Made by a program: the position numbers and the translations under genes. From the NCBI RefSeq assembly GCF_028290435.1, contig NZ_JAQGJV010000074.1:1-64000 (forward strand): a DNA stretch of 64,000 bases, written 5' to 3'. Positions 41,665-44,642 of this stretch are shown in pieces (the stretch's first letter is position 1; every line of letters begins with the position of its first letter). The DNA is from Devosia sp. (GTDB lineage Bacteria; Pseudomonadota; Alphaproteobacteria; Rhizobiales; Devosiaceae). The notes under the pieces were generated by a model, which was not told the DNA's origin, did not search any database, and saw only the letters and a program-made list of their open reading frames with translations.

Positions 41665-42104
41665 GCTGTTCTCCTGCCGGGCAAACCACAGTCGAATCGT
41701 GAATTCAACGTCCCCCGAACATAGGGGTTGCATAAGAACATAACAAGAACAGATTTTACGGGACATACTCCCGTTGCCCATGAGGTGGTGATCGCGGCGC
41801 CGCCCTTCAATGCCGTTTTCAGTTCCACCATCGCAAGGCAGGACTGCGCTGCCGTGGGTGGACAGGATGAGGCCATCGGCCTAAACCAGCCGACCCTTCC
41901 GAACCCTGCTGCCGGAAGGCATCTATTCTTAAGCAGTCGATTTAGTATTGACCCTCGGGGGAGGGCGGTTTACTAAACAATACGCTTAACTATTAAACTC
42001 GGCCTGCTGACACACGCTGTCGTGGATTAGTTGCACCACCGTGTCGAAGTGAACCGAAGTCATTCGTCTTTATGGCGATACCGATCGTATGAAGGGAAAG
42101 CCCC
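41665..42104. other. Intergenic region between radical SAM gene and DHA2 exporter
   Basis: A 440-bp gap with divergent genes on either side. I see no gene. It is AT-richer toward the exporter (41945-42000), with TTGACC at about 41948 and a weak -10 (TACTAA) 17 bp on. A partial inverted repeat ATAC-CGATC-GTAT at 42078-42090 shares the CGATCGT core of the TetR operator at 44149. No confident promoter. Confidence 0.4.
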
Positions 42105-43583
42105 ATGACCACCGATGCTCCAACCTTGGCCGATTTCGAGGCTACTTCCCCAGCCGAGGACCATAGCGCCCGCAACAAGCTGGTGATCGGCCTGCTGCTG
42201 GTGTCGGCCTTCGTCGTCATCCTCAACGAGACCATCATGGGCGTGGCACTGCCGCACCTGATGGCCGATCTCGATATCACCGCCAGCGCCGCGCAGTGGC
42301 TGACCACCGCATTCATGCTGACCATGGCCGTGGTCATTCCGATCACCGGCTTTCTGCTGCAGCGCCTTAATACGCGGCCGGTCTTCATCCTCGCCATGTC
42401 GCTGTTTTCCGTCGGCACGCTGATTTCGGCGCTGGCGCCCGGCTTTGGCGTGCTGGTCATCGGCCGCATCGTGCAGGCTTCCGGCACCGCCATCATGATG
42501 CCGCTGCTGATGACCACCGTCATGAACCTCGTGCCGCCCGAATCGCGCGGCAAGACCATGGGCAATATCTCCATCGTCATCTCGGTCGCCCCCGCTATCG
42601 GGCCGACCATTTCCGGGCTGATCCTGTCGGTGCTCGAATGGCGCTGGATGTTCATCCTGGTGCTGCCGATCGCTCTTGGCGCCCTGGCGCTGGGTGCCTC
42701 GCGCATCAAGAACGTCACCACGCCCACCAATGCGCCGATCGATATCGTGTCGGTCATCCTGTCCGCCATCGGCTTCGGCGGCCTGGTCTATGGCCTCAGC
42801 GGTCTGGGTGAAGCGGCGATCCATGCGCCGCTCGTGTCGCCCTACATTCCGCTCGTCGTGGGCGTCGTGGCCATCGTCATCTTCGTGCTGCGCCAGTTGC
42901 AGTTGCAGAAAGTGGATCGCGCACTGCTCGATCTGCGCACGCTGGCCATCCCGGCCTTCACCATCTCGGCGGCCATGATGTCCATCCTGATGATGGCGAT
43001 GTTCGGCGCCTTCATCCTGCTGCCGATCTATCTGCAGAACGTACTTGGCTTGACCACGCTCCAGACGGGTTTGCTGCTGCTGCCCGGCGGGCTGATCATG
43101 GGCCTCTGCGCGCCGACGGTGGGCAGTCTGTTCGACAAGTATGGCCCGGCGCCGCTGGTTATTCCCGGCGCCATCCTCACCAGCGCCGCCTTGTGGAGCC
43201 TGACCTTCATCCAGGTCGACACCCCGTTCTGGGCGCTGCTGATCGCTCACCTGGGGCTCAGTGTCGGGCTTGCTCTGATGTTCACGCCACTCTTCACCGT
43301 CAGCCTCGGCTCGCTGCCGCCGAACCTTTATTCGCATGGCAGCGCTGTGATCGGCACCAGCCAGCAGGTAGCTGGCGCGGCTGGCACGGCTTTGTTCGTC
43401 GCCATCCTGACGTTGCAGTCGGCGGGTCTGGCTGCCGGCGGAGCCGATGTGCTGACCGCCACGACCGGCGGCATCAAGGCGGCGTTCCTCTGCGGCGCCA
43501 TCATCTCGCTCCTCGCAGTGATTGCGGCCTTCTTCATCCGCAAGCCCGCCGGCAGCGCGCCCGGAATGGCCCACGGCCACTAA
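42105..43583 (+). CDS. MFS drug exporter, DHA2 (14-TM) family
   Basis: This 492-residue transporter has 14 hydrophobic segments and DHA2/EmrB motifs: LNETIMGVALPHLMADLDI in TM1 (motif D1), QWLTTAFMLTMAVVIPITGF, the motif A-like loop LQRLNTRPVFIL, and motif C around the GPTISGLIL segment. It probably exports lipophilic drugs or toxic metabolites by H+ antiport. The TetR gene lies convergent directly downstream (1 bp), and the TetR operators are in front of the tautomerase, so direct control of the exporter is possible but not shown. Confidence 0.92.
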   Translation: MTTDAPTLADFEATSPAEDHSARNKLVIGLLLVSAFVVILNETIMGVALPHLMADLDITASAAQWLTTAFMLTMAVVIPITGFLLQRLNTRPVFILAMSLFSVGTLISALAPGFGVLVIGRIVQASGTAIMMPLLMTTVMNLVPPESRGKTMGNISIVISVAPAIGPTISGLILSVLEWRWMFILVLPIALGALALGASRIKNVTTPTNAPIDIVSVILSAIGFGGLVYGLSGLGEAAIHAPLVSPYIPLVVGVVAIVIFVLRQLQLQKVDRALLDLRTLAIPAFTISAAMMSILMMAMFGAFILLPIYLQNVLGLTTLQTGLLLLPGGLIMGLCAPTVGSLFDKYGPAPLVIPGAILTSAALWSLTFIQVDTPFWALLIAHLGLSVGLALMFTPLFTVSLGSLPPNLYSHGSAVIGTSQQVAGAAGTALFVAILTLQSAGLAAGGADVLTATTGGIKAAFLCGAIISLLAVIAAFFIRKPAGSAPGMAHGH

Positions 43584-44135
43584 CTACAGCAGCCGCAACA
43601 GTTCGGCGGCAACACCATCGAGGGGGGCAACGCTCCCCTCGGCACGGCAGAGGATCAGGGCGCCTTCCATGCCGGCAACCGTCGTCAGCGCAATCGCGGC
43701 GGCGCGGGCAGGGGGGAGCCCCGCGGTTTCAAGTTGCTCGCTTAGCAGCGCCACCCAGGCCCTGAACGTCTCCCGCACCACGCCGATCAATTGATCCCCC
43801 GGCATCGTATCGATCGCCGTGCCCGCAACCGCGCAGCCGGATGCCCCGTTCGACGCGATCACCACGCGCCGCCACAGTTCCACGAACCCGTTGATCACCT
43901 CGACCGCGCTCGCCCCATCCAGCGCCCGCTGTCGCGCCAGCACGAATGCGCCCGTCGCCTGCACGGCGGCCTCGGCCAACTGCGCCTTGCCCTCGGGAAA
44001 ATGGTGATAGATCGAGCCACGCGGCGCGCCGCTATCGGCCAGCACGTCCGAAAACGACGTCGCATTCACCCCGCGCGCCGCGATCAGCGCCACGGCACTG
44101 CGCACCATCTTGGTCCGGCTATCGTTCTCCATCAC
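43584..44135 (-). CDS. TetR-family transcriptional repressor
   Basis: This 183-residue regulator has an N-terminal helix-turn-helix (about residues 8-52: RSAVALIAARGVNATSFSDV then SGAPRGSIYHHFPEGKAQL) and a helical ligand domain with a cysteine pair around GASGCAVAG, as in the LmrA/YxaF-like TetR group. The promoter region between it and the tautomerase gene (44136-44219) holds two matching palindromes, so it probably represses itself and the tautomerase. The inducer is unknown. ATG at 44135, with an alternative at 44132. Confidence 0.92.
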   Translation of the reverse strand: MMENDSRTKMVRSAVALIAARGVNATSFSDVLADSGAPRGSIYHHFPEGKAQLAEAAVQATGAFVLARQRALDGASAVEVINGFVELWRRVVIASNGASGCAVAGTAIDTMPGDQLIGVVRETFRAWVALLSEQLETAGLPPARAAAIALTTVAGMEGALILCRAEGSVAPLDGVAAELLRLL

Positions 44136-44148
44136 GCAAATCCTTGAC

Positions 44149-44164
44149 TATGACGATCGTCATA
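44149..44164. promoter_or_regulatory. TetR operator 1 (perfect palindrome)
   Basis: TATGACGATCGTCATA is a perfect 16-bp palindrome, 14 bp before the TetR ATG. Its arms TATGA-G and C-TCATA match operator 2; each is preceded by TTGAC. Confidence 0.75.
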
Positions 44165-44185
44165 TGGCAACTCTTGTCTATTGAC

Positions 44186-44201
44186 TATGATGGTCATCAT
44201 A
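44186..44201. promoter_or_regulatory. TetR operator 2 (7-bp arms, 2-bp centre)
   Basis: TATGATGGTCATCATA has 7-bp perfect arms around GT and lies 18 bp before the tautomerase ATG. Centre-to-centre distance to operator 1 is 37 bp. Confidence 0.75.
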
Positions 44202-44219
44202 ATTCCTGGAGAAGCTCTC

Positions 44220-44642
44220 ATGCCCATGATCGATGTCTACGCTGCCAAAGGAACGTTCGGCAATAAACCCGCGCTCACCAAGGCGCTCAATGCCTGCCTG
44301 ATGGCTTGGGAAAAGGTGCCGCCGATTTCATGGTTTACCGACAATACCGCCGCCTTCATCCACGAAATGGACGCGGATTCGCTGGCCAACGCCAATGGCG
44401 ACAGCACTTATGTGCGCATCCAGGTCCTGACCCCGGTGGGCATTCTGGATCGCGATAAAAAGCTGGGTGTCACCCGCGAGATGACCGACATCATCGTCGC
44501 CGCATCGGGCAATGCCACGCCCAAGGACCAGGTCTGGGTGCAGATCGTAGAGGCCCCCGATGGCGGCTGGGGCATTGGCGGCGACGCCTATCTCAATGAC
44601 GAAATCGCCACCGAAGCGCGCCGCCGTCTTGGCATCGCATAG
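44220..44642 (+). CDS. Tautomerase superfamily (4-oxalocrotonate tautomerase-like) protein
   Basis: This 140-residue protein begins MPMIDVYAAKGTF. After Met removal the N-terminal Pro is the catalytic base of 4-OT/MIF-type tautomerases. The core continues as a fused or extended tautomerase fold with SWFTDNTAAFIHEMD and TYVRIQVLTPVGILDR, and the second strand-turn region KDQVWVQIVEAPDGGWGIGG. The length fits one long subunit rather than a 60-residue 4-OT. The substrate is unknown. It lies divergent from the TetR gene and behind two operators, so expression is probably ligand-induced. The ATG at 44220 follows GGAGAAG. Confidence 0.85.
   Translation: MPMIDVYAAKGTFGNKPALTKALNACLMAWEKVPPISWFTDNTAAFIHEMDADSLANANGDSTYVRIQVLTPVGILDRDKKLGVTREMTDIIVAASGNATPKDQVWVQIVEAPDGGWGIGGDAYLNDEIATEARRRLGIA

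Follow-up and report, generated by a model that had tools for sequence, protein, structure and literature searches.

The window analysed here, a stretch of 64,000 nucleotides of Devosia sp. DNA, contains a divergent pair of genes. On the reverse strand, tetR (43584-44135, starting at GTG 44135 or ATG 44132) encodes an LmrA/YxaF-like repressor of the TetR family, and on the forward strand the gene at 44220-44642 encodes a 140-residue enzyme of the tautomerase superfamily with a proline directly after the methionine. The gene of a DHA2 (MFS) exporter (42105-43583) lies tail to tail with tetR. Pfam profiles and a PDB match identify the repressor: it carries the TetR_N helix-turn-helix domain PF00440 (40.3 bits, cut-off 24) and the TetR_C_13_2 C-terminal domain PF21993 (72.7 bits, cut-off 27), and its top PDB sequence match is YxaF (1sgm, E 6.9e-17). 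Two operators at the target promoter, a further mark of LmrA/YxaF-like repressors, have candidate counterparts in two palindromes, O1 and O2, located by sequence between the divergent genes.

O1 (TATGACGATCGTCATA, 44149-44164) is a perfect 16-bp palindrome and O2 (TATGATGGTCATCATA, 44186-44201) has 7-bp arms around a GT centre; both were recognised by sequence reading and phylogenetic footprinting, and neither is assigned to a strand. The two sites share perfect 7-bp arms and a 2-bp centre, lie 37 bp apart from start to start, and are each immediately preceded on the 5′ side by TTGAC; the pairing, layout, spacing, preceding TTGAC and divergent gene setting described in the initial annotation were thus all present in the sequence. 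A single 7-2-7 palindrome is unremarkable by itself, since the window holds 12 perfect ones against a mean of 7.1 (s.d. 2.5) in 100 first-order Markov sequences. O1 and O2 are the sole pair in the window within 60 bp of each other, with 12 of 14 arm bases identical, and the simulation yielded three such pairs in total over 100 windows, pairs of any sequence being counted.

The enzyme was characterised by alignment, AlphaFold2 (AF2), Foldseek and Pfam. The proline after the methionine, predicted to be catalytic, was found in 45 of 45 aligned rows, a conservation that is partly selection because most rows were found by two peptide patterns, one of which contains that proline. A2 and A3 comprised 42 and 41 hand-picked rows from the 84 loci described below, plus three loci of a Thermoplasmata class search. 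The predicted structure (pLDDT 94, pTM 0.87) has the fused beta-alpha-beta fold, and its best Foldseek matches were Cg10062 and cis-CaaD, with Cg10062 on top (TMq 0.77, E 4.2e-9). The enzyme therefore resembles the cis-CaaD/Cg10062 group in predicted fold and in its proline after methionine, but differs from it in sequence (about 16% identity) and scores 19.4 bits with Pfam PF01361, below the cut-off of 22; a relative at locus L058 scores 26.0 bits, above the cut-off.

Of 75 genomes of the genus, 2 (one being the own genome) had a match to the enzyme at E 0.001 or better, as did 41 of 397 genomes of the order, three of them (again with the own genome) below 1e-30. Horizontal acquisition of the enzyme is likely. 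When one genome per species was scanned, 312 relatives were recovered and 80 of them retained for locus analysis; the titles of their records include Devosia, Mesorhizobium, Chloroflexi, Eremiobacterota, Dormibacterota, several actinobacterial groups, Thermoplasmata and others, and many are metagenome-assembled genomes. One further locus was on a Deinococcus plasmid, and 37 stretches of viral contigs matched the search pattern, none of which encoded a relative of the enzyme. Separately, a Pediococcus tautomerase relative (L095) sat on a long branch of the tree, with a nearby MFS gene 35% identical to that of the window.

The initial annotation had proposed looking for co-occurrence of TetR and tautomerase, and an LmrA/YxaF-like TetR was found divergently upstream in 47 of the 84 tautomerase loci analysed, leaving 37 without it, 35 of which had the 200 bases upstream needed for scoring. 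Taking 12 of 14 arm bases or better as a site, at least one site was present in 44 of the 47 loci with the TetR and two sites in 37, compared with none in the 35 scorable loci without it. Omission of the window and its sister locus L002 left 42 of 45 against 0 of 35. The sites therefore persist in relatives that retain the gene pair. The three loci with the TetR and no site at this threshold were L056 and L090, whose TetR matches are weak, and L105, with two sites at 11 of 14; the seven one-site loci were six from Thermoplasmata and L108. L033 was excluded as sharing its contig with L002, and L071 and L097 were removed from the count without TetR as lying too close to contig ends; L071 does have two sites. 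L082 was counted as lacking the TetR, its sole TetR match being 28% identical and 1.9 kb away, and the weak tautomerase matches L005-L031 stood outside the locus counts.

Mapped onto the tree of the enzyme, TetR presence requires 17 changes, 4 of them forced by well-supported branches. A paired test on four well-supported independent pairs gave a mean of 3.7 of 4 in agreement and none against (median p 0.125); all branches together offer 17 pairs, on a tree with few columns, many open forks and related rows. Since the pair of sites recurs in many unrelated bacteria in which the TetR adjoins the enzyme, O1 and O2 are very probably the operators of the adjacent LmrA/YxaF-like TetR, as first suggested. 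The same footprint, in which 37 of the 47 loci, from different phyla, again have both sites, refutes a chance origin of O1 and O2, to which we assign a negligible probability despite the 12 palindromes in the window where 7.1 were expected.

A different TetR occupies the same divergent position in 9 of the 35 loci without the first type (in L039 the match is weak). In L058 this second repressor fits TetR_C_13 better than TetR_C_13_2, and instead of the palindrome of the window, the palindrome ACAGACCGNTCTGT was found at 11 of 13 or better in eight of the nine loci (L049, L052, L053, L055, L058, L060, L066 and L070, but not L039), with two copies in seven. The second palindrome was absent from all 47 loci with the first TetR and the first palindrome from all nine loci with the second. 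L063, whose second-type TetR is about 900 bp away, has one site of the ACAGACCGNTCTGT type. A different TetR thus brings a different palindrome to the same enzyme family, indicating that operator type follows the repressor and not the enzyme; the two-site layout is found with either of the two repressors. These results also bear on the idea that O1 and O2 belong to some other regulator that merely accompanies the TetR-tautomerase pair. Such a regulator gains some room from the fact that TetR binding is deduced from sequence comparison, but at loci lacking this TetR the promoter of the same enzyme has no such sites (0 of 35), and a different TetR goes with a different palindrome; we consider it very improbable. 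Among other loci, a scan of ten upstream open reading frames found HxlR regulators upstream of the tautomerase in L036, L047 and L075.

Distant plasmid-borne relatives of the first TetR had paired imperfect palindromes in three of five cases. The Nocardiopsis relative is paired with a tautomerase and has sites scoring 12 and 12 of 14; the Variovorax relative (L136:2434-2487) has imperfect palindromes 38 bp apart, scoring 13 and 13 of 14, next to a gene that we read as crotonase-like; and Streptomyces NBC_01001 has sites scoring 11 and 11 of 14. In Streptomyces NBC_01717 the tautomerase gene runs in the same direction and its promoter has a single weak site, and no site scoring above 10 was found for the Tsukamurella relative. 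Because the Variovorax pair lies beside another enzyme, paired sites may be general to this clade of TetR proteins.

As anticipated in the initial annotation, we scanned the own genome (4.58 Mb) for the motif, and the 16-mer TATGAYRNNYRTCATA at no more than one mismatch was confined to O1, O2 and one match inside a reading frame (C22:43005). Perfect matches to the 14-mer core at C21:3641 and C72:303834 also lie inside open reading frames, and a wider regulon built on these three positions was rejected on that ground. When up to two mismatches were allowed, the 14-mer core matched at 308 forward positions and its reversed-pattern control at 13; among the matches listed, four contexts were read, three inside reading frames and one (C15:62429) possibly intergenic. 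Four other bacterial genomes were searched for comparison, with no more than one mismatch allowed. The Saccharibacteria genome has only its two sites and the Eremiobacterota genome one, its O1 being below the threshold. The Mesorhizobium genome (8.7 Mb) has its two sites and six elsewhere, all with one mismatch (reversed-pattern control 1), and the Devosia 66-14 genome its two sites and one elsewhere (control 1); in view of these extra matches, the regulon is not necessarily local everywhere.

A partial match to the operators had been noted before the DHA2 exporter at 42078-42090. The letters CGATCGT do exist ahead of the gene, at 42082-42088; the best 16-mer in 41977-42105, however, scores 9 of 14. 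Of 2000 equally long stretches drawn at random from the window, 959 did as well or better, and an operator before the exporter was rejected as being at chance level. The gene may still belong to the TetR-tautomerase system. In 10 of the 47 loci that have the TetR, an MFS gene lies no more than 1 kb from the pair; the corresponding figure for loci without it is 1 of 37 (Fisher p 0.019, a value that ignores relatedness and unequal flanks), and the exporter's best NCBIfam match by E-value is LmrB, below its cut-off. Neighbouring genes in L064 and other loci were confirmed as MFS_1. These observations favour the exporter as the enzyme's efflux partner under the same TetR, whether directly at 42078-42090 or otherwise. 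Against such a partnership, no 12-of-14 site was found at the exporter in the stretches of the ten MFS-associated loci; orientation and side differ among the ten, the exporter being tail to tail with tetR in four (the window, its sister L002, L046 and L064) and flanking the enzyme instead in the other six, with varied positions in loci such as L051, L076, L083, L111 and L112; the four tail-to-tail exporters have no promoter in common with tetR; and in Thermoplasmata, three loci near an MFS gene contain the single site of their genome, placed at the enzyme. We therefore regard control of the exporter by this TetR as improbable. An inverted repeat, TTTAGTA ... TACTAAA, was seen by eye at 41939-41990 upstream of the exporter and is possibly an operator of some other regulator.

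The conservation of TTGAC indicates how the palindromes are placed in the promoter. Exact TTGAC stands before O1 in 35 of the 37 two-site loci, and two of the 37, the window and its sister, have it before O2; its presence before both sites is therefore true of the window, but as a conserved element it goes with O1, and TTGAC as a component of O2 was ruled out. In the hexamer located 18 bases past TTGACT, 33 of 38 aligned two-site regions (the 37 loci plus L071) have A at the second position and 30 have T at the last. The simplest reading is that TTGAC (44144-44148, forward strand) would be the -35 box of the tautomerase promoter, with O1 in the promoter spacer and O2 over the start region. The opposite strand of TTGAC, GTCAAGGA, may serve as the ribosome-binding site of tetR. 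In the window itself the hexamer after O1 is CAACTC, a poor match to a -10 box, so that the promoter here may instead overlap O2: a consensus scan of 41900-44400 returned two promoter-like sites against 0.4 in shuffled sequences, and the putative alternative, TTGTCT-18-CATAAT (44174-44203, forward strand), scores 9 of 12. With either assignment, an operator is predicted to obstruct the tautomerase promoter. O1 lies 13-16 bases from the possible start codons of tetR, a closeness from which autoregulation of tetR would be expected, and the position of the two sites thus suits the action on both divergent genes that had been proposed for them.

Cooperative repression, proposed in the initial annotation, was not supported by the comparison of spacings. 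The distance between O1 and O2 in the 37 two-site loci was 24 bp (one locus), 32 (five), 33 (three), 34 (five), 35 (three), 36 (seven), 37 (eleven), 38 (one) and 42 bp (one), with no single helical phase. When the 35 spacings of 30-40 bp were tested for clustering at 10.5 bp, 0.23 of draws from a null of even spread over 32-38 bp were as strong. In its strict form, cooperativity would require contact between the two TetR dimers, or bending of the DNA that separates them, and neither site would work alone. It draws on the prevalence of two sites in bacterial loci (37 of 47 loci overall) and on 36-37 bp being the most frequent spacing (18 of 37 loci); the spacings nevertheless span over half a helical turn, their clustering is no stronger than an even spread, and seven loci have a single site. 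Variable spacing without one phase leaves no argument for cooperativity by fixed contacts, and we consider the strict form unlikely.

The single-site loci are mainly those of Thermoplasmata. L064, L068, L083, L084, L085 and L111 each have one site, 33-38 bp before the enzyme gene; the site lacks a preceding TTGAC and is preceded by TA in all six, versus none of the 37 bacterial O2 sites. Each of the six genomes (1.2-1.8 Mb, probably incomplete) contains exactly one match at no more than one mismatch. Among 250 genomes of the class, the search found 16 loci; three of them (L118, L119 and L120) have the TetR and one site each, and the 13 without the TetR have no site. L118 and L120 are the already counted L083 and L111, leaving L119 as the new locus, where TA again precedes the site. 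The contig carrying L083 appears to be genuinely archaeal: of 100 genomes of the class, 95 contain relatives of a gene lying about 2.7 kb from this locus. A similar neighbour occurs in L068. By eye, the lone operator in the seven Thermoplasmata loci overlaps a TATA-like sequence (CTATATGA or similar). We give even odds to a history in which the TetR-operator-tautomerase module passed between bacterial phyla and also reached Thermoplasmata. There the promoter would have been rebuilt around it, so that TTGAC and O1 were lost and the operator came to lie over the archaeal TATA box. An operator in that position would let the same kind of repressor block TBP/TFB and not a sigma factor.

The analysis directly showed the sites and their conservation, the agreement between operator and repressor type, and how few other sites the own genome holds. 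From these observations we infer a switch in which O1 and O2 would be the operators of the adjacent TetR, which would repress the divergent tautomerase gene and probably itself; we put the probability of this reading at roughly 0.9. Binding, repression, promoter assignment, autoregulation, additivity and inducer are the modelled parts of this switch. In most bacterial relatives, O1 would occupy the spacer between the TTGAC -35 box and the -10-like hexamer of the tautomerase promoter and also adjoin the start of tetR, and O2 would lie just downstream, near the transcription start and shortly before the tautomerase ribosome-binding site. A TetR dimer on either operator would block RNA polymerase, two operators would make repression tight and largely additive, and the TetR would presumably be released by a small molecule related to the enzyme's reaction.

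The nearest known system is that of B. subtilis LmrA/YxaF (QdoR), with which the TetR of the window shares the C-terminal family PF21993; YxaF is also its best PDB sequence match. QdoR is reported to have two operators at qdoI, the nearest parallel in print found for the pair in the window (PMC8481877). The target in B. subtilis is a quercetin dioxygenase, whereas in the window it would be a tautomerase encoded divergently from tetR. For an allicin-resistance island, tetR and 4-ot are reported in two different gene sets (PMC7119367). Among the open-licence PMC papers that the searches returned, no title or abstract opening described the TetR-tautomerase pair, and the letters of O1 did not occur in the open-licence PMC literature searched. 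The predicted switch, a TetR with two operators, is of an ordinary kind, placed in a new enzyme setting and with unusually clear comparative support. An uncharacterised tautomerase family thereby gains a clean, testable candidate switch with known operator letters, which are usable in a search for the inducer or substrate. The single-site archaeal version is less ordinary than the bacterial two-site switch and, together with the joint swapping of TetR and operator on one enzyme, constitutes a natural experiment in how repressor and operator travel together.
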